A stretch of DNA of 64,000 bases from Chitinophaga pinensis. Lineage in GTDB: Bacteria > Bacteroidota > Bacteroidia > UBA7662. The notes beneath the pieces were generated by a model. It was not told the origin of the DNA, ran no database searches, and was given only the letters and a program-made list of their open reading frames with translations. The stretch spans positions 1-64,000 of the forward strand of contig CAMCHJ010000003.1 in NCBI GenBank assembly GCA_945874665.1, in the 5' to 3' direction. Position 1 is the stretch's first letter; every line of letters begins with the position of its first letter. The translations under genes and the position numbers were made by a program. Shown here in pieces: positions 1 to 7,671 of this stretch.

Positions 1-888
1 GGCAGCGTTACCAATCCACGCTTTATTATCACTGCCACGGTAGATATCGGCACCAAGGATATCATTGCAGGTCCTCCACAGATGATTGCACAACAGTTGA
101 GTCTTACTATTTATATTGGAGATGTCGTCACGAAAACGCTTTTTTCAAGCCTTACTCTCAATTTAAAGGGAGTGGGAACCAATGAAAATAAGTCATTTAT
201 TGAGGCGATTAAGCGCATTAACCCGAAAAGTGAGGAGGCAAAAGAACTTTTGGATGAGGGTAAATCTAAAATCATATCTTATTACAGTGCCAATTGCGAC
301 TTTATTCTCAAAGAAGCACAAACCTTGGTAAAGCAAGAAAAATACGATGAAGCCATTTACCAGCTTTCGTTGGTACCTGATGTCTGTCAAGATTGCTATT
401 TCAAGTGCCTAGATACACTAGTTTCAGTATATCAACAAAAAATTGATACCGATTGTCAAGTGAAATTCAACGAGGCCAAAGTCATTTGGGCCGCAGCTCA
501 AACCCCGAATGGCGCGGAACGAGCAGGAGACGTGCTCAGTACCATAAACCCAATGGCCAGTTGCCAACCAGAGGTTTCTATTTTCATCAAAAAGGTCGAT
601 GCCAAACTCAAGGCCGATGAAAAAGCAAGATGGCAGTTTAAAATGAAACAATATGCTGATAAAATTGCAATGCAAAAAGAACAAGTAAGAATAGTAGAAG
701 AGAAAGGAAAGCGAGATGATACCTATAGGGAGAATCAATCGCAGCGCGATGCAATTTCACAGGAAAAACAATCAGCTCGAAATTTCGAGTTAGATAAAAT
801 CAGAGTAAACACATACAGAGAGGTAGCAGTGGAGCAAGCCCGAAATCAACCTAAAACAGTTACTTATAATAACATTTATTGGAGATGA
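1..888 (+). CDS. ORF1: hypothetical protein, 5' end outside window
   Basis: The reading frame is open from base 1 and the first ATG is only at 82, so the gene begins upstream of the window and 295 codons are visible. I do not recognise an assigned function. The visible part starts with a beta-rich stretch (NPRFIITATVDIGTKD), continues with a Cys-containing helical middle, and ends in a highly charged, probably coiled-coil tail rich in Lys, Glu, Gln and Arg before a short NNIYWR end. The stop TGA overlaps the ATG of the SIR2-like gene (ATGA), so the two are probably translationally coupled. The similarity of the beta-rich stretch to other Bacteroidota hypothetical proteins is my recollection and is unchecked. 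Confidence 0.75.
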   Translation, partial: GSVTNPRFIITATVDIGTKDIIAGPPQMIAQQLSLTIYIGDVVTKTLFSSLTLNLKGVGTNENKSFIEAIKRINPKSEEAKELLDEGKSKIISYYSANCDFILKEAQTLVKQEKYDEAIYQLSLVPDVCQDCYFKCLDTLVSVYQQKIDTDCQVKFNEAKVIWAAAQTPNGAERAGDVLSTINPMASCQPEVSIFIKKVDAKLKADEKARWQFKMKQYADKIAMQKEQVRIVEEKGKRDDTYRENQSQRDAISQEKQSARNFELDKIRVNTYREVAVEQARNQPKTVTYNNIYWR

Positions 889-1814
889 TTAAGGATTTTA
901 TAAATAAAAACGCTGGAATAAAATTTACGATTGTTTTAGGGTCAGGATTCCACATTCAAAAAAATTCAAATACTATTTTAAATAGTTGGGAGATGCTTTT
1001 AAAAAAAATGGATCCTAACTTTGTAAGCCAAGGTAATTACTTATTAGACTTTGAACAGATGATATTAAGTGAAAAATCTTCTCTTCAATCGTCAGATGTT
1101 GAAAAACTAAAATTATCTCAAGTAGCAAAATGTTTGAAAAAAGTACAAGAAAATCTTGATTTAGAAAAATTAAATCAATATCCTATAGAAATTTTCAATC
1201 CAGATATTATCTCGGACATAGTAATATTGAATTTTGATGAAGTTGCAGAAAAAATATGCAAGGAAGTTCTCAAATGTAAAATATCATCAATTCAATATGT
1301 TGAGATAGATGAAAAATTAAAAAGTGAAGCCAAAATTCATCAAACTACAAGATTCAAAGAAGTTATTTTTCCAAACAAAGGAATTATTCGATTTTGGCAT
1401 CCTCATGGTTCAATTGCTAAATCTTCAGAAATGATATTAAGTGCAAGAAGCTATGCAATGCACATTGTAAATATTGAAAGGTTGAGAAAGCATTCTAAGT
1501 CCAAACTAAAAAACAATAATAAATTAAATACTTGGTATGATCAGCTGATTCATCAACCTGTGTTAATATTAGGTGCTTCTATATCTAATTCAGAATGGGA
1601 CCTATGGAGTGCCTTTATTAACAGAGAACGTAATTTTTCTAAAAAAGATAATAAAGAATTTCGCAGACCAATTTATCAAATGAGAAGCTCGGAAAATTTA
1701 ATTTCAAATGAAAATGACAAAAAAACAAATGAACAATGGTTTGAACCGCTTTTTGAAGAAAAATATTGTTTCAATGAACAATGGTCAATGCTCTCTAAAA
1801 TTATATCAAAATGA
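885..1814 (+). CDS. SIR2-like domain protein (predicted NAD-binding/NADase fold)
   Basis: The product is 309 residues. Motifs in SIR2-family order are visible: GSGFH at 19-23 (nucleotide-binding loop), NFD at 116-118 (Asn of the NxD motif), HPHGS at 172-176 (His before Gly-Ser) and ILGASISNSEW at about 229-239 (Rossmann strand plus S-x-x-E/D segment). Stand-alone SIR2-like domains in bacteria are often NAD-degrading effectors of defence systems; that role here is inference. I chose ATG 885, which overlaps the ORF1 stop, over a TTG at 879. The stop overlaps the next ATG (1811, ATGA). Base composition is very AT-rich compared with the core genes, which suggests transfer. No second effector or sensor domain is evident. 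Confidence 0.7.
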   Translation: MIKDFINKNAGIKFTIVLGSGFHIQKNSNTILNSWEMLLKKMDPNFVSQGNYLLDFEQMILSEKSSLQSSDVEKLKLSQVAKCLKKVQENLDLEKLNQYPIEIFNPDIISDIVILNFDEVAEKICKEVLKCKISSIQYVEIDEKLKSEAKIHQTTRFKEVIFPNKGIIRFWHPHGSIAKSSEMILSARSYAMHIVNIERLRKHSKSKLKNNNKLNTWYDQLIHQPVLILGASISNSEWDLWSAFINRERNFSKKDNKEFRRPIYQMRSSENLISNENDKKTNEQWFEPLFEEKYCFNEQWSMLSKIISK

Positions 1815-2259
1815 AAGTATTTTACTTATTCATAATTTTCACTTTTATTGATTACAATGCATTTGCACAATCCTTCAATGATGAAAAAGTTAGTTTAACG
1901 AATTTCATCAAACGGATGCACACAGCTAAACCCTTTGAAGGAGTAAAAATTATTGATGACTACGATCATCAGTATTTCGTTTCGGTTATTAGCTTGGAAA
2001 AAGCTAAATACACAAGTGAATTAACTATGAATCGTGTTGCTCAAGTGAAAGCACAATCGCAGGCCAGTACTTTTTTGAATGGGGCCACAATTTCGATGGA
2101 GATGTTAATCACAACTAAAGAATCCAAGGACTCAACGAATAATATAAAAACGACAGTTGAAACGGTTGAACAATGGGTTTCTCTCAAGGCCTTGAGTTAT
2201 TAACAAATTTTAACAACGCAGATAGTTTGAGAATGGTTTTTAATTATTTTAGGAATTGA
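1811..2259 (+). pseudogene. A': small secreted protein, frameshifted paralogue of the gene at 5616
   Basis: This copy starts with a signal peptide (MKVFYLFIIFTFIDYNAFAQ, cut after AQ) and aligns closely with protein A at 5616-6104, including the shared block NRVAQVKAQSQASTFLNGA. The frame terminates at TAA 2201-2203 after about 130 codons. Compared with A, roughly six residues after VEQ are missing and the frame is shifted. From 2176 a second frame reads GFSQGLELLTNFNNADSLRM and onward to TGA 2257-2259, matching GFSKGLELLTNF of A. A deletion near 2174 therefore truncated the protein. A shortened 130-residue product could still be made. It is coupled to the SIR2-like gene by ATGA and lies 34 bp before B1. 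Confidence 0.75.
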
Positions 2260-2293
2260 AAAAAGAATAAAATAAATAACAAAAAAAACAAAA

Positions 2294-3649
2294 ATGAAAT
2301 CAATTTTTAAATCAATTATTATTACTGGACTATTTGTATTTTTACAACAAATAGTTTTTGCCCAAGACGCAGATAAAACTGTTGCAATCACTGTAAGTGG
2401 TAGTGGAAAAACGCAAGATGATGCTAAGCAATCTGCATTACGTTCTGCAATTGAACAGGCCTTTGGTGCTTTCATTTCCTCTAAAACAGAAATATTAAAT
2501 GACCAAGTTGTGGCGGATCAAATGTCATCCGTTACTAGTGGAAACATAAAATCTTTTGACTTACTTAACGAATCTCAGCTTCCTGATGGTAGCTGGGGTG
2601 TAACTTTAAAAGCAATTGTTTCGGTTGATAAACTCACAAGTTTTGTGGAAGCAAAGGGTATTGCCATAGAAATAAAAGGCGGTATGTTTGCTTTAAATAT
2701 CAAACAGCAATTATTAAATGAGCAAGGTGAAATTAAAGCAGTTAGCGAAATGGTAGGATTACTTCATGAACCAATGCAAATTTCTTTTGATTATGTTATT
2801 AAAAGTAGCGATCCTAAATCGTTAGACGCAGAAAGTAGAAACTGGGTAATACCTCTAGTTGTGACAGCAACAACTAATGAAAATATTGATTTTTGTGCAA
2901 ATTATTGTATTAAAACATTAGAAGCGCTAAGCCTTTCTTCTGAAGAAGTAACAAGCTATAAGAGTTTAAACAAAGCCGTTTTCCCCGTTGTCATTATATA
3001 CAATTGGGTTACCAAAACTTTTTATTTAAGAAAACAAAGTAGTATAAATGCATTAATCACGCTTACAAGTCAGTGGGCTTATTATACTCGTTTATTTACA
3101 GTGCAATCTGGAATGGATAAATCAAATGGAAATGGCGTAGGTAAAATACACAAGTTTATGGATCATCGATACTTAAAAACTGATGGTATCACAATTAACT
3201 TTTTAACAATAGGAAAACAGGCCGCCACATTTACTTGGCAGGATAAACGAACGCTTGCACAAATTGAACAAATGACTGGATATACAGTAAAGCCAAGAGG
3301 CGTTGTTTCACAATATAAGCATGGTGGTTTTGTTGTTTTTGAAGAAAATGGGCATGGTTTAGTAGCTGCAATTACAGATCTAGGGAATATGGATTGGAAC
3401 TCTGCCAAAACGGCCTGTGATGAATTGATTTTAAATGGATATAGCGATTGGCATTTACCTGCAAAAGAAGAATTAAATGCACTTTTTGTTAATTTGAAAC
3501 AGGTAGGAGTTGGCGGTTTTGAGAATTACTACTATTGGAGTAGCACTGAGGGAAATGATAGAGCGTGGATTCAGAACTTCAGTAATGGCGACCAGCACGT
3601 AAACCCCGGATACTCAAAAATCAATGTTCGGGCTGTGAGGACTTTTTAA
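2294..3649 (+). CDS. B1: secreted protein, FlgT-N-like N-terminal domain plus DUF1566/C-type-lectin-like C terminus
   Basis: The product is 451 residues with a signal peptide ending VFAQ near residue 24. Residues about 30-125 form the domain shared with B2 and B3, containing SGSGKTQDDAKQSALRSAIE and SVDKLTSFVEAKG. It resembles the N-terminal domain of flagellar assembly protein FlgT/LPP20-type proteins, although no flagellar gene is nearby. Residues about 335-451 form a DUF1566-like domain with DWNSAKTACDELILNGYSDW, HLPAKEELNALF and YYYWSSTE, ending NVRAVRTF. DUF1566 proteins adopt a C-type-lectin-like fold and are frequent targets of diversity-generating retroelements. The terminal segment after YYWSSTE looks like such a variable region. 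I infer a secreted or surface protein with a variable ligand-binding tip. Confidence 0.75.
   Translation: MKSIFKSIIITGLFVFLQQIVFAQDADKTVAITVSGSGKTQDDAKQSALRSAIEQAFGAFISSKTEILNDQVVADQMSSVTSGNIKSFDLLNESQLPDGSWGVTLKAIVSVDKLTSFVEAKGIAIEIKGGMFALNIKQQLLNEQGEIKAVSEMVGLLHEPMQISFDYVIKSSDPKSLDAESRNWVIPLVVTATTNENIDFCANYCIKTLEALSLSSEEVTSYKSLNKAVFPVVIIYNWVTKTFYLRKQSSINALITLTSQWAYYTRLFTVQSGMDKSNGNGVGKIHKFMDHRYLKTDGITINFLTIGKQAATFTWQDKRTLAQIEQMTGYTVKPRGVVSQYKHGGFVVFEENGHGLVAAITDLGNMDWNSAKTACDELILNGYSDWHLPAKEELNALFVNLKQVGVGGFENYYYWSSTEGNDRAWIQNFSNGDQHVNPGYSKINVRAVRTF
3527..3643 (+). other. Candidate DGR variable repeat (VR) at the end of B1
   Basis: The codons for YYYWSSTEGNDRAWIQNFSN and the following GDQHVNPGYSKINVRAVR encode the usual position of a DGR variable region, at the extreme C terminus of a lectin-fold DUF1566 domain. 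Positions after AW-QNF are dominated by codons such as agt, aat, gac, cac, aac, ccc, tac and atc, which can be derived from AAY codons by changing only A at the first two positions. The invariant-looking end (NVRAVRTF) would be the initiation-of-mutagenic-homology side. No matching template repeat or reverse transcriptase was found in the window, so the assignment is inference. Confidence 0.45.
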
Positions 3650-3933
3650 CTATTTATCAATTTAACTATTTTAACTAACCGCGGAGTGGTCTAATTTTTA
3701 TTAGTGGCATTATTAACGATTTACCCGTTTTCAAAGATATATCTGGTTTAAAGCCCTTTCTGAAAACATGAAATAATTATTTTTAATATTTCACTTTAAT
3801 TGAATACAACTGTTTGCAAATATAATGAACTCGTAACCCTCGTAGTCTATGACCAATGAAAAACTTCAGATGAATCAAATTAGACTAGGAATAATGCAAA
3901 AAAAAACAAATTCCAATCTTTAATCAAATAAAC
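3650..3933 (+). other. 284-bp intergenic gap between B1 and B2
   Basis: No ORF of note. Immediately after the B1 stop there are repeated TTTAACTA-type motifs (3648-3678) followed by a short GC-rich patch (CCGCGGAGTGG, 3679-3689) and a weak AT hairpin CTAAT-TTTT-ATTAG at 3691-3704. The remainder is AT-rich and presumably contains the promoter of the B2 operon. I did not find a convincing TTTG-N19-TAnnTTTG promoter in it. Confidence 0.4.
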
Positions 3934-5157
3934 ATGAAACAACTATTTTTTATCCTGGCTCTGGCATTTAGTGTCAATGCTTACTCACAAGATGATAAAA
4001 CCGTAACCCTTGTTGTAAGCGGGCAAGGCAAGACGCAAGATGAAGCTAAGCAAAGCGCTTTGCGAAGTGCCATTGAACAGGCGTTTGGGGCATTCATATC
4101 GTCAAAGTCAGAAATACTAAATGATGATTTAGTTAAGGATGAAATTGTTTCCATTTCAAATGGGAATATTCAAAAATACGAATTGCTTACTAAAGATTAT
4201 ATTCCAGAGGGGTATTATGTGGTGACATTAAGGGCTGTAGTTTCTATCTCCAAGCTGACGAGCTTTTGTGAAAGTAAAGGTATTGAGGTTTCGTTTAGAG
4301 GCGATTTATTGTCTGCAAATATTGAGTTGATAGAAATAAATAAAGCCAGTGAATTGATTGCCATGAAAAATTTGATAAAAATGTCAAATGATTGGTTGAT
4401 AAAGTGTTTTAATTATTCACTTGAAACATCAGAGCCTAGGAATACCAATGGACGTTACCAAATTAGCCTGACTGTATACACACTTTTGAATTCTAACTTT
4501 GTTGGCTTTAACAATTATATAACGAACACATTAAAGAGTATTAGTTTGAGCAGCGCGGAAATTTCGAAATTTGACAAATTACAAATTGAATATCATAAAG
4601 TTCAAATTTTAAATTCAGATAAATCTAAAAGCACAGTTTATTTAAGAAATGAGGAGAGTTTAAATATGCTTATGGAATTGTTTAAATATCCAGAGGTGCA
4701 TTTGCACAATTTTATAGTTTCTAATAATTTGGAAGCAATTGATGGATATAAATTTGACAAAGTAATTCGATCTGATCAAAGGTCAGCTATTGCTAAGCAT
4801 AGTAGTGTTCAAGTCTTCAATAAATATATTTTTTTTGATGTTACAATCGGTCAAGGGTTTCCATTGGGTGCAGAAGATGAATATACGGCTTATGCTAAAA
4901 CAAAACACGGAGTAATCTCTACATTACTTCCCATAGAGTTAGAATATAATCGTTTCCCCTTAATGATGAAAGGAGATTACTCTGTGTTTAATTATGACCC
5001 GCATGGACGGAGGTTTGGAAAAAACCAAACACTTTCAATTTCGTTTTTCTGCCCTAATGACAGAGGAGTGGTTTCTGTTAGGCAATTTGATTATTCATTC
5101 GATAAAGAAAAAATTAAGAGCATAAGTAAATTCGAGGTCAAACAATATAAAAATTAG
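3934..5157 (+). CDS. B2: secreted protein with FlgT-N-like N-terminal domain
   Basis: The product is 407 residues with a signal peptide (MKQLFFILALAFSVNAYSQ). Residues about 24-120 are clearly homologous to B1 (GKTQDEAKQSALRSAIEQAF, then FGAFISSKSEILND, then SISKLTSFCESKG). The middle section (about 130-230) is still alignable to B1 and B3, but the last 170 residues are unrelated to the DUF1566 end of B1 and carry no domain I recognise. It probably starts a second transcription unit after the 284-bp gap, since the GIY-YIG-like gene follows after only 6 bp. Function unknown; an exported, periplasmic or surface location is inferred from the signal peptide. Confidence 0.75.
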   Translation: MKQLFFILALAFSVNAYSQDDKTVTLVVSGQGKTQDEAKQSALRSAIEQAFGAFISSKSEILNDDLVKDEIVSISNGNIQKYELLTKDYIPEGYYVVTLRAVVSISKLTSFCESKGIEVSFRGDLLSANIELIEINKASELIAMKNLIKMSNDWLIKCFNYSLETSEPRNTNGRYQISLTVYTLLNSNFVGFNNYITNTLKSISLSSAEISKFDKLQIEYHKVQILNSDKSKSTVYLRNEESLNMLMELFKYPEVHLHNFIVSNNLEAIDGYKFDKVIRSDQRSAIAKHSSVQVFNKYIFFDVTIGQGFPLGAEDEYTAYAKTKHGVISTLLPIELEYNRFPLMMKGDYSVFNYDPHGRRFGKNQTLSISFFCPNDRGVVSVRQFDYSFDKEKIKSISKFEVKQYKN

Positions 5158-5163
5158 GACAGA

Positions 5164-5619
5164 ATGAAAATAGCCAAATTCGAATGCCTGAAAGGTCGCT
5201 ATTGTGAACGTCCTGTCTTGTTTCACAAAGAAATGGATTATGCGCAAGCCATTTATAATGCGAATATTCCTTACCGCCCAGGTGTGTATTTGGTTTATTC
5301 AACCACTGGGCTTAATCACGTGGATAAGGAATTGTTGTACTACGGCAAAGCGGGTGTTACTAAGAACGGCAAGAATCCTTCACTCAATTTTCACCAACTA
5401 CCCATTAGATTACTGGCTGCTACAAAGAGGCCAAAGGAATATACTCTCAGCGATAAAAATGATGTTTTAAGAGCAAAGATTTGGCCCTGGTATATTGAAT
5501 GAGGATGCTTTGAAGGGCTGAGAATTTATTGGTTCATCACGGAATGGCCAACTGAAGATCCGAATGAACTTGAGTCAAAAATAAAGAATGAGCTTCCTAA
5601 CCGGAATAATAAAATATGA
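5164..5619 (+). pseudogene. GIY-YIG-like protein interrupted by an in-frame TGA
   Basis: The frame from ATG 5164 runs to TGA 5500-5502 (112 codons), but the same frame remains open beyond it (GCFEGLRIYWFITEWPTEDP and onward) to TGA 5617-5619, which overlaps the next ATG (5616, ATGA). Both the continued coding character and the ATGA junction indicate that 5503-5619 was coding. PGVYLVYS and LLYYGKAG match the GIY and YIG motifs of the GIY-YIG fold, followed by RL and AKIWPWYIE. A full-length product would have 151 residues. It is either a pseudogene by nonsense mutation, a sequencing error, or a truncated form lacking the C-terminal part. Nuclease activity is not demonstrated by the sequence. 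Confidence 0.6.
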
Positions 5620-6104
5620 AAAGACTAACCCTTTTAATGGCATTTATTGTCATCCAGTTTAATGCTAATGCGCAATCCTTTAATGAGGATAAAACAGCAT
5701 TTTCCAACTTCCTGAAGCGCATGTATGTTGCCTCTCCCTTTGAAGGCGTTAAGGTGGTAGACGACTATGAAAAGCAATACCTGATTTCGGTTATTTCCCT
5801 CGATAAGGCCAAGTACACTTCCGAATCGGTTATGAATAGGGTTGCACAAGTGAAGGCACAATCGCAGGCCAGTACATTTTTAAATGGAGCCAGCATATCG
5901 ATGGATTTGATAATAAATACAAGGGAAGTCACCGACACCAAGGGGCAAACAGAAAGTATCACAGAAACCATGGAACAGATAAAGCAGAATTCCATCGGCT
6001 TTTCTAAGGGTCTAGAGCTACTCACTAATTTTGATTCAGCAGATGGCAAAAAGGTAGTGTTTGTTTACATGCGAGAATTAGATACGAAGACAAAAAATGA
6101 TTAA
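5616..6104 (+). CDS. A: small secreted protein, intact paralogue of the 1811 gene
   Basis: The product is 162 residues with a signal peptide ending NANAQ. It shares with A' the sequences SNFLKRMYVASPFEGVKVVD, SVISLDKAKYTSE and RVAQVKAQSQASTFLNGA. No known domain is recognised. The start ATG overlaps the stop of the extended GIY-YIG frame, and B3 follows about 43 bp downstream, repeating the order X-A-B seen at 885-3649. I infer that A and B proteins act together outside the cytoplasm. The copy at 1811 has lost the end by frameshift, so this may be the only fully functional A. Confidence 0.75.
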   Translation: MKRLTLLMAFIVIQFNANAQSFNEDKTAFSNFLKRMYVASPFEGVKVVDDYEKQYLISVISLDKAKYTSESVMNRVAQVKAQSQASTFLNGASISMDLIINTREVTDTKGQTESITETMEQIKQNSIGFSKGLELLTNFDSADGKKVVFVYMRELDTKTKND

Positions 6105-6147
6105 ATCATTACGAACAAAGGTTTATCCCACTGCTAAATTCAAACTG

Positions 6148-7671
6148 ATGAAAAAATATTTTTACTTGCTGCTCTCCTTTACATTGACTCTATTTCATGT
6201 TCAAGCTCAAAACGAAGGGAAATCAGATCTAATAAGTATAAAAGTTGTTGCCTCGGGCAAAACTGAAACTTTGGCTCTAACTGAAGCCTTGCGCTCGGCC
6301 TTGACGCAAACATCCTCTGTGTTTATTAGTGCCAATACAACAATTATTAATGATCAAATTTCGAAAGATGAAATCGCAATGATCAACAATGGTTCTATAG
6401 CTGGCTACAAGTTAGTTGATAAACATGAAAATACAGATGGGACTGTTTCCATCACGTATGAGGTGACTGTATCTGTAAATAAACTAACATCATTTGTTGA
6501 AAGTACTGGAGGAGCAACCGAATTGAAAGGCAGCCTATTTGCTGCCAACATAAAGCTGCAAGAGTTAAATGAAAAAGCCGAGCAAAAAGCAGTTGAAGAC
6601 TTGATTACCGTATCACAAACCATCTTGAAAAATTCATTTGATTACAAAATCGAAAATGGAGAGCCAACTGAACAAAATGGGAAATGGAAAATACCGTTAA
6701 TTATTTCAATTACTAAGAATAAGAATTATGATGAGTTTGTAAAGTTTTTTAGTGCTAGTTTGGCTGGGATTTCAATGAACAAGGCAGAGCAAGATGCATA
6801 CATCAAATTAAATAAACAACTATATGCCATTGGCCTTTTCGATAATTCTAAGTTGACAATAAACACGCCTTCGGTTGCAAGATATCATAGTACCCAGGAA
6901 TCAATCCAAGGGTTATCGAGTATGAATTCAGATATTGAACTCTTTGAAAATAAATTTTACATAAATAAAAAAGGAAATTATGAAGCTATTTTTTTGAGGA
7001 ATGAATTCTCCTATAAATCCTTAGAAAATTTTGTCATTAATGTGGAAAGAGAGCTTTTTTCTGATTTAGTAATTACGAATGGTGTAACAGACGAGTTGAT
7101 AGGCAGACAAGAGAGGTACAAAATTTCAGGTTATCTATCCAATATTAATTTATCGTTCGTTTCCTCCGAAACAGTTCCAATTGTTAGAAATGGATTTGCT
7201 TATTTGGGTGGAAATATGTTCAATGAAAATAAGAAAAATTTGATTGATCCTGGAATTACAGGAATTTGGTTTGGTTGGAATTGGGAAAAATTCAAATCAC
7301 CTGTGGTTGTTCAATTACGTAATGATTTTTGGGAATCGCGAATGGTTGGTTTTAATGAAAAGCGTAATACTTGGATGTCTTTTCAGGATCTTTCTACAGA
7401 CCTGACAACGATAAATTTTTTTGAAGGATATTTAGATTACATATTTGGCAATTATATTCTGCACGTCAAGAAAGTAAATAATTTGAATTATGAGTATCAA
7501 GCACAACATAAAAACAGCAATCCAAAATCAATCATTTCGTTCCCCTTACAGCTTACATCTATAGGTAATGACGCCGGTGAGGTATATAAATTATATTTAG
7601 ATAATACTTTATTGACTGAGGAGATTTCACAAGTTTCAGAATATCGTGTGAAGGTGGATACGCGAAAATAG
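6148..7671 (+). CDS. B3: secreted protein with FlgT-N-like N-terminal domain
   Basis: The product is 507 residues. ATG 6148 gives a clean signal peptide (MKKYFYLLLSFTLTLFHVQA); an upstream in-frame ATG at 6097 overlaps gene A and would add 17 residues that spoil it. Residues about 25-130 are related to B1 and B2 (LTEALRSALTQTSSVFISAN, SVNKLTSFVES) although more divergent. The C-terminal 300 residues are unlike B1 or B2 and contain several Trp/Gly-rich beta-like segments (GITGIWFGWNWEKF). Function unknown. It is the last gene of the AT-rich accessory block and is convergent with leuS. Confidence 0.72.
   Translation: MKKYFYLLLSFTLTLFHVQAQNEGKSDLISIKVVASGKTETLALTEALRSALTQTSSVFISANTTIINDQISKDEIAMINNGSIAGYKLVDKHENTDGTVSITYEVTVSVNKLTSFVESTGGATELKGSLFAANIKLQELNEKAEQKAVEDLITVSQTILKNSFDYKIENGEPTEQNGKWKIPLIISITKNKNYDEFVKFFSASLAGISMNKAEQDAYIKLNKQLYAIGLFDNSKLTINTPSVARYHSTQESIQGLSSMNSDIELFENKFYINKKGNYEAIFLRNEFSYKSLENFVINVERELFSDLVITNGVTDELIGRQERYKISGYLSNINLSFVSSETVPIVRNGFAYLGGNMFNENKKNLIDPGITGIWFGWNWEKFKSPVVVQLRNDFWESRMVGFNEKRNTWMSFQDLSTDLTTINFFEGYLDYIFGNYILHVKKVNNLNYEYQAQHKNSNPKSIISFPLQLTSIGNDAGEVYKLYLDNTLLTEEISQVSEYRVKVDTRK

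Follow-up and report, generated by a model that had tools for sequence, protein, structure and literature searches.

B1, a gene in the 64,000-nucleotide stretch of Chitinophaga pinensis DNA analysed here (the window), is probably an orphaned target of a diversity-generating retroelement (DGR). That element would have been ordered target, hairpin, avd, template repeat (TR) and reverse transcriptase (RT), and its core was either lost or left behind. Counting for this reading, a template reconstructed from B1's orthologs finds true TRs in other genomes, and the flank downstream of B1 matches the junctions of intact DGRs. The informative region runs past the stop codon to about 3740, beyond the coordinates given in the preliminary description of this gene (Table 1).

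Table 1. Features of B1 and its downstream flank (positions in the window)
Feature	Position	Strand	Description or basis
B1 coding sequence	2294..3649	+	Signal peptide, FlgT-like body, C-terminal Lcl_C domain
Lcl_C (DUF1566) C-type-lectin-like domain	3383..3640	+	PF07603, Foldseek 8q4e
Variable stretch (VR-like)	3521..3625	+	Codons largely derivable from AAY/AAR; divergence, NNC excess, template alignments
Conserved 3' end GTTCGGGCTGTGAGGACTTTTTAA (VRAVRTF stop)	3626..3649	+	At IMH position
Spacer CTATTTATCAATTTAACTATTT	3650..3671	+	Common to DGR targets
Mini-hairpin ACCGC-GGA-GTGGT	3678..3690	+	Degraded form of ACCGC-GNA-GCGGT, one mismatch
Relic of avd 5' end (NDLPVFKDI)	3705..3740	+	1-base deletion relative to intact avd genes

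The B1 protein and its lectin domain

B1 is an intact open reading frame of 451 amino acids, predicted to encode a secreted protein whose body is 38-40% identical to those of B2 and B3. The Pfam model Lcl_C (PF07603, formerly DUF1566) matches residues 364-449 with an E value of 1.8e-13 (3.3e-14 when the genome was searched with PF07603), and the motifs YYYWSSTE, AW-QNF and NVRAVRTF are all present, so that the DUF1566-type lectin fold first proposed for this end of the protein is confirmed. The Pfam search found no Lcl_C domain in B2 or B3, as had been predicted; B2 gave a weak FlgT_N match below the cut-off. B1 is the sole Lcl_C gene above the cut-off in its genome. The best Foldseek match of its AlphaFold2 model (pLDDT 82) is the C-terminal domain of Legionella Lcl (8q4e, E 1.1e-6), which phmmer also identifies as the closest solved relative, and the N-terminal body has no significant Foldseek match. 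DUF1566 is, as previously stated, a common DGR target domain (PMC6642488, PMC4159848), and B1 has the composition of a DGR target gene, namely a C-type-lectin-like domain with a variable repeat (VR) at the 3' end.

A second length-variable stretch, IHKFMDHRYLKTDGITINF, lies at residues ~275-302 (about 3116-3200). Among orthologs it differs by substitutions and indels, and by eye these are not of the DGR codon type.

Codon usage and divergence of the variable stretch

The variable stretch is distinguished from the rest of the gene by its third codon positions. In B1, the ratio NNC/(NNC+NNT) is 12/23 in this stretch and 38/172 in the body (p=0.003), which places the abundance of AAY-derivable codons noted earlier above chance. 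Orthologs L042, L044, L046 and L047 have the same excess over their own bodies (p 2e-5 to 0.009). It is not seen in L043, L048 and L049, and the signature is therefore not universal in the gene family. Across B1 and five orthologs, C makes up 38% of third positions in the variable stretch against 9% of those in the framework, the pattern that an AAY-rich template would give. Most DGR-linked Lcl_C genes also have an NNC excess, and a conserved Lcl_C family from the same taxonomic family (WTSSQSGSSTAWALNF) has none.

The last ~35 codons are the most diverged part of B1 and these five orthologs. Among five closely alignable members (B1, L042, L044, L046 and L047), divergence at codon positions 1/2/3 is 0.13/0.10/0.33 in the body and 0.42/0.42/0.34 in the variable stretch. 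With L086 added, positions 1 and 2 together rise 3.5- to 8-fold over the adjoining framework, and position 3 rises 1.0- to 2.9-fold. Codon-position divergence and NNC excess thus both locate a variable repeat where the preliminary description had put it. The transition/transversion ratio was rejected as a further test for DGR activity, being uninformative at this divergence. L042 and L086 have almost identical frameworks (0.07/0.04/0.08) but strongly divergent variable stretches (0.46/0.43/0.24), a sign that renewal may have occurred recently somewhere.

The contig carrying another ortholog ends exactly where the variable stretch starts (...DYWS; L045:3271). This single case fits an assembly break on strain heterogeneity.

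The downstream flank

The region 3' of B1 resembles the junction between target and avd in intact DGRs. The GTTCGGGCTGTGAGGACTTTTTAA-type 3' end is common to other Lcl_C targets, including DGR targets with an adjacent RT, and the spacer CTATTTATCAATTTAACTATTT recurs as an exact pattern in L043 (twice), L046 and the DGR of genome G061; its core 12-mer is present in the window a single time, against an expectation of 0.04. The 5-bp mini-hairpin was missed by an exact hairpin search (>=6 bp) and was revealed by comparison of flanks, where B1 and L046 have it in common with the G061 DGR target. As folded DNA it has -1.6 kcal/mol in B1 and -4.7 in its intact relatives. B1 accordingly has both the conserved 3' end and the downstream hairpin of a recipient site.

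In intact DGR loci the hairpin is followed by an avd start of the form M(A/E)LYYDLPVFKD. At B1 we found no intact avd; what is left of it is a frameshifted remnant of its first ~13 codons. The relic is short, about 36 bp, and homology ends at about 3740, inside avd. The B1 flank 3652-3740 aligns to L133 over 91 alignment columns with 76% identity (E 2.8e-11 in a small local search), and the avd part alone scores 38.3 bits, the best of 444 control slices of the window reaching 31.9. L046 retains a shorter avd start and L043 degenerate traces. Taken together, the spacer, the hairpin and the broken avd start point to a former target-avd junction.

Of 395 Bacteroidia genomes sampled, 30 had matches to a 76-nt query built on the junction. 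Nearly all strong matches sit after the WSSTE...VRAVRAF end of Lcl_C-type genes, a position that the query favours because it includes the coding end. A DGR RT adjoins the B1-type flank in L132, L135 and L150; most matches have no RT within ~1.5 kb on each side. Many Bacteroidia Lcl_C genes (L128-L155) have the DGR-type flank and no RT nearby, and these are candidate orphan or remote targets.

An inferred template and real template repeats

We built a 147-nt template by hand from the orthologs, with AAY/AAR at variable positions, and used it as a search query only. The query retrieved true TRs in two genomes, G013 and G061. G013, from the same family as the source genome, has a single locus that combines a target, an avd-like gene, a TR and an RT of the IGNLTSQ type, and its TR and VR differ mostly at TR adenines. 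A degenerate pattern from the middle of the template matched five IMG/VR contigs; in two of these, L107 and L109, every substitution between TR and VR is at a TR adenine. The phage contigs L105-L109 encode complete or near-complete DGRs whose template archetype is that of the cellular Lcl_C systems. Among viral contigs we found no relatives of B1 and no template carrying its own 3' end.

The G061 TR served as an independent classifier of adenine and other sites in six variable stretches of the B1 family. Pairwise differences fall on 54% of adenine sites and 28% of other sites, and 44 of 49 adenine columns are variable, as against 33 of 56 others (p=3e-4). This comparison of sequences supports templated variation without proving it, since the non-adenine sites include structural residues. 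B1 alone shows no adenine bias against this foreign template (mismatches at 19/47 and 20/55 sites). L044 has a different set of VRAVR codons, which is close to the end of the G061 template.

Search for the retroelement

No RT or TR was recovered from the genome of B1 (96% complete, 35 contigs). Searches of this assembly with the RVT_1 profile and with a DGR-RT profile, which scores 1e-191 on G013 and 5e-159 on G061, gave no matches. Against the same assembly, blastn with the VR returned only short chance matches besides B1, and blastn with the inferred template returned B1 alone. The window has nothing RT-like and no template repeat, consistent with the first reading of it, and none of the components of a complete DGR (a DGR-clade RT, a TR matching the VR at non-adenine sites, an intact avd gene) was identified. 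The preliminary description had suggested that B1 is a remote target of a DGR elsewhere in the genome and had proposed a genome-wide search for RT and template repeat; that search found neither, and with a broken avd start downstream of the gene the suggestion is not upheld. It had also named an outcome that would refute its reading, namely a complete genome with neither RT nor template repeat and no adenine-specific strain variation in the 3' end. The first part was observed in the 96%-complete assembly and the second was not, as adenine-type variation is seen among orthologs.

The DGR-RT profile found nothing in the ortholog genomes G390 and G288 (each 99% complete), and no DGR RT was detected in the genomes of L042 or L086. 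Some remaining ortholog genomes gave only weak matches, to other RT classes. We rejected these as the missing RT: L055 and L056 are retron-like, L053 is group II intron-like, L057 joins an RT to a long C-terminal part unrelated to it, and L054 is one other non-DGR match.

Orthologs and genomic neighbourhood

Orthologs of B1 occur in Bacteroidota MAGs. At least two come from other families of the class (G390, family f54, and G288, family f13), and two other genomes of the source genus have none, a distribution that points to horizontal transfer. Across orthologs, the FlgT-like body and the framework half of the Lcl_C domain are jointly conserved, and the DGR-type flank occurs in three divergent members (B1, L046 and L043), which indicates an old junction in this gene family.

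B1 lies within a conserved Bacteroidota operon (1-7671 of the window, and L042-L052). A DUF6175 protein is encoded upstream in orthologous loci. The operon also comprises small QSFxDEK proteins and a tandem series of FlgT-like paralogs that differ at their C-termini, and between these lie genes of intracellular appearance that vary from locus to locus (SIR2-like at 885-1814, HNH in L043, SIR2/AbiH-like in L049). The operon resembles a cargo-swapping, possibly defence-related island; defence-system models run on it gave only weak PtuB/PtuA-like matches, to an HNH-like protein in L050. The open reading frame at 5164-5618 (MKIAKFECLKGRYCERPVLF...) is interrupted at 5500-5502 by a TGA in frame, reads on from there without a stop to about 5618, and is possibly a fresh pseudogene.

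One locus, L043, has two Lcl_C genes (1-342 and 4663-6072) with about 75 bp of identical 3' flank. Their frameworks are 81% identical and their variable stretches unrelated, and only one of the two has C-rich third positions.

Origin and present state of B1

We propose that B1 descends from a gene that either belonged to a working DGR or was copied from one. This element would have introduced random bases in the variable stretch wherever the template has adenine, making new lectin binding surfaces on a secreted protein, and the core (avd-TR-RT) would later have been deleted or left behind. The gene has probably also moved between families of Bacteroidia. The binding surface would now be largely frozen and drifting slowly, with the hairpin mismatch, RTF in place of RAF and several NNA codons as likely signs of drift. 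B1 is probably inactive as a DGR target at present: the hairpin mismatch and the RTF end, together with the requirement for a hairpin downstream of the VR in BPP-1 homing (PMC3240598), suggest a weak or dead site. The mismatch is not conclusive, because L150 also carries one yet has an adjacent DGR RT.

Several points count against the orphan reading: the relic of avd is short, B1 alone shows no adenine bias against the foreign G061 template, the hairpin mismatch has a parallel in L150, a DGR may exist on an unbinned element outside the 96%-complete assembly, and the variable stretches of L042 and L086 diverge on a near-identical framework. The last of these could also mean that a DGR elsewhere in the same cell, on a plasmid, prophage or contig missing from the assembly, still diversifies B1 in trans. 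B1 has a full recipient site (VR, conserved 3' end and hairpin), the variable stretches of orthologs have the look of recent renewal, the same template archetype is known from phage DGRs, mobile elements get lost from MAGs, and trans-diversification of remote targets has been explored in Thiohalocapsa PB-PSB1 (PMC10907252). An active remote target would, however, have its cognate RT and TR in the same cell, and both are absent from the 96% of the genome that was recovered; two 99%-complete ortholog genomes likewise have no DGR RT, the B1 hairpin is weakened, and no viral contig had a template bearing B1's own 3' end. We consider current diversification of B1 quite improbable. It is unlikely, too, that B1-type genes at large are mobile targets with no retroelement of their own that are re-diversified in trans only on passing through hosts, or on meeting phages, with an Lcl_C-type DGR of compatible template; if true, such population-level hypermutation would explain the divergence of L042 and L086 in genomes with no detected DGR.

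B1 may instead have received its 3' end from a DGR target elsewhere, rather than lost a DGR of its own, if a cassette of variable stretch and flank is swapped between Lcl_C genes. The codon set of L044, the sharing of the flank by Lcl_C genes with unrelated N-termini, and the identical flanks beside different variable stretches in L043 are consistent with such exchange. Conservation of the Lcl_C framework half with the FlgT-like body, and the flank in three divergent members, argue against it, and we regard it as a rather doubtful origin for B1. Unbinned mobile elements, DGR-bearing hosts and 3' cassette exchange are all candidate sources of ortholog renewal. Very improbable is ordinary diversifying selection on the lectin surface with no DGR ever involved. 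An abundance of N, S, Y and D is natural for Lcl_C surfaces, and strong positive selection also raises positions 1 and 2 with little effect at position 3, but it leaves unexplained the C excess at third positions of AT-rich genes and, above all, the DGR-type flank and the avd relic, the latter of which strongly disfavours it. An orphaned target with its core lost or left behind remains the reading that we prefer.

If so, a DGR target can be recognised in the absence of RT or TR by its scar, which comprises the codon signature of the VR, the spacer, the GNA mini-hairpin and the beginning of avd. Orphan or remote targets of this kind are missed by surveys that take RTs as their starting point; Roux et al. 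2021 state that remote targets would escape their own approach (PMC8144416). Should the variable stretches of orthologs still be undergoing renewal, diversification in trans could be tested directly.

Comparison with known systems

The closest counterparts of B1 are the Lcl_C-targeting DGRs of Bacteroidia, L075 in G013 and L096/L132 in G061. They share with it the Lcl_C target domain and the template archetype AW-(K/N)-(Q/M)-NFNNGN-NNNNKNNNN, and their genes are ordered target-avd-TR-RT; the spacer and GNA mini-hairpin are common to B1 and the G061 system. Unlike them, B1 lacks an intact avd, a TR and an RT, and it has a FlgT-like body where their targets have repeat-containing N-termini. The Legionella Lcl domain differs in being carried on a collagen-like stalk, and nothing in the literature searched describes it as a DGR target. 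The mtd target of BPP-1 also has an inverted repeat 3' of the VR, the loop of which is similar to the GRNA consensus (PMC3240598), although its hairpin has an 8-bp stem and 4-nt loop and that of the B1 type a 5-bp stem and 3-nt GNA loop.

Orphan targets have been described before in Treponema denticola. Isolates of this species with no core DGR retain orphan target genes, which the authors read as remnants or as genes acquired alone (PMC4891356). These resemble B1 as target genes in genomes with no RT and TR, and differ from it in phylum and in target protein. New in B1 are the FlgT-like host protein, the spread of its gene family across families of the class Bacteroidia, and the avd scar.
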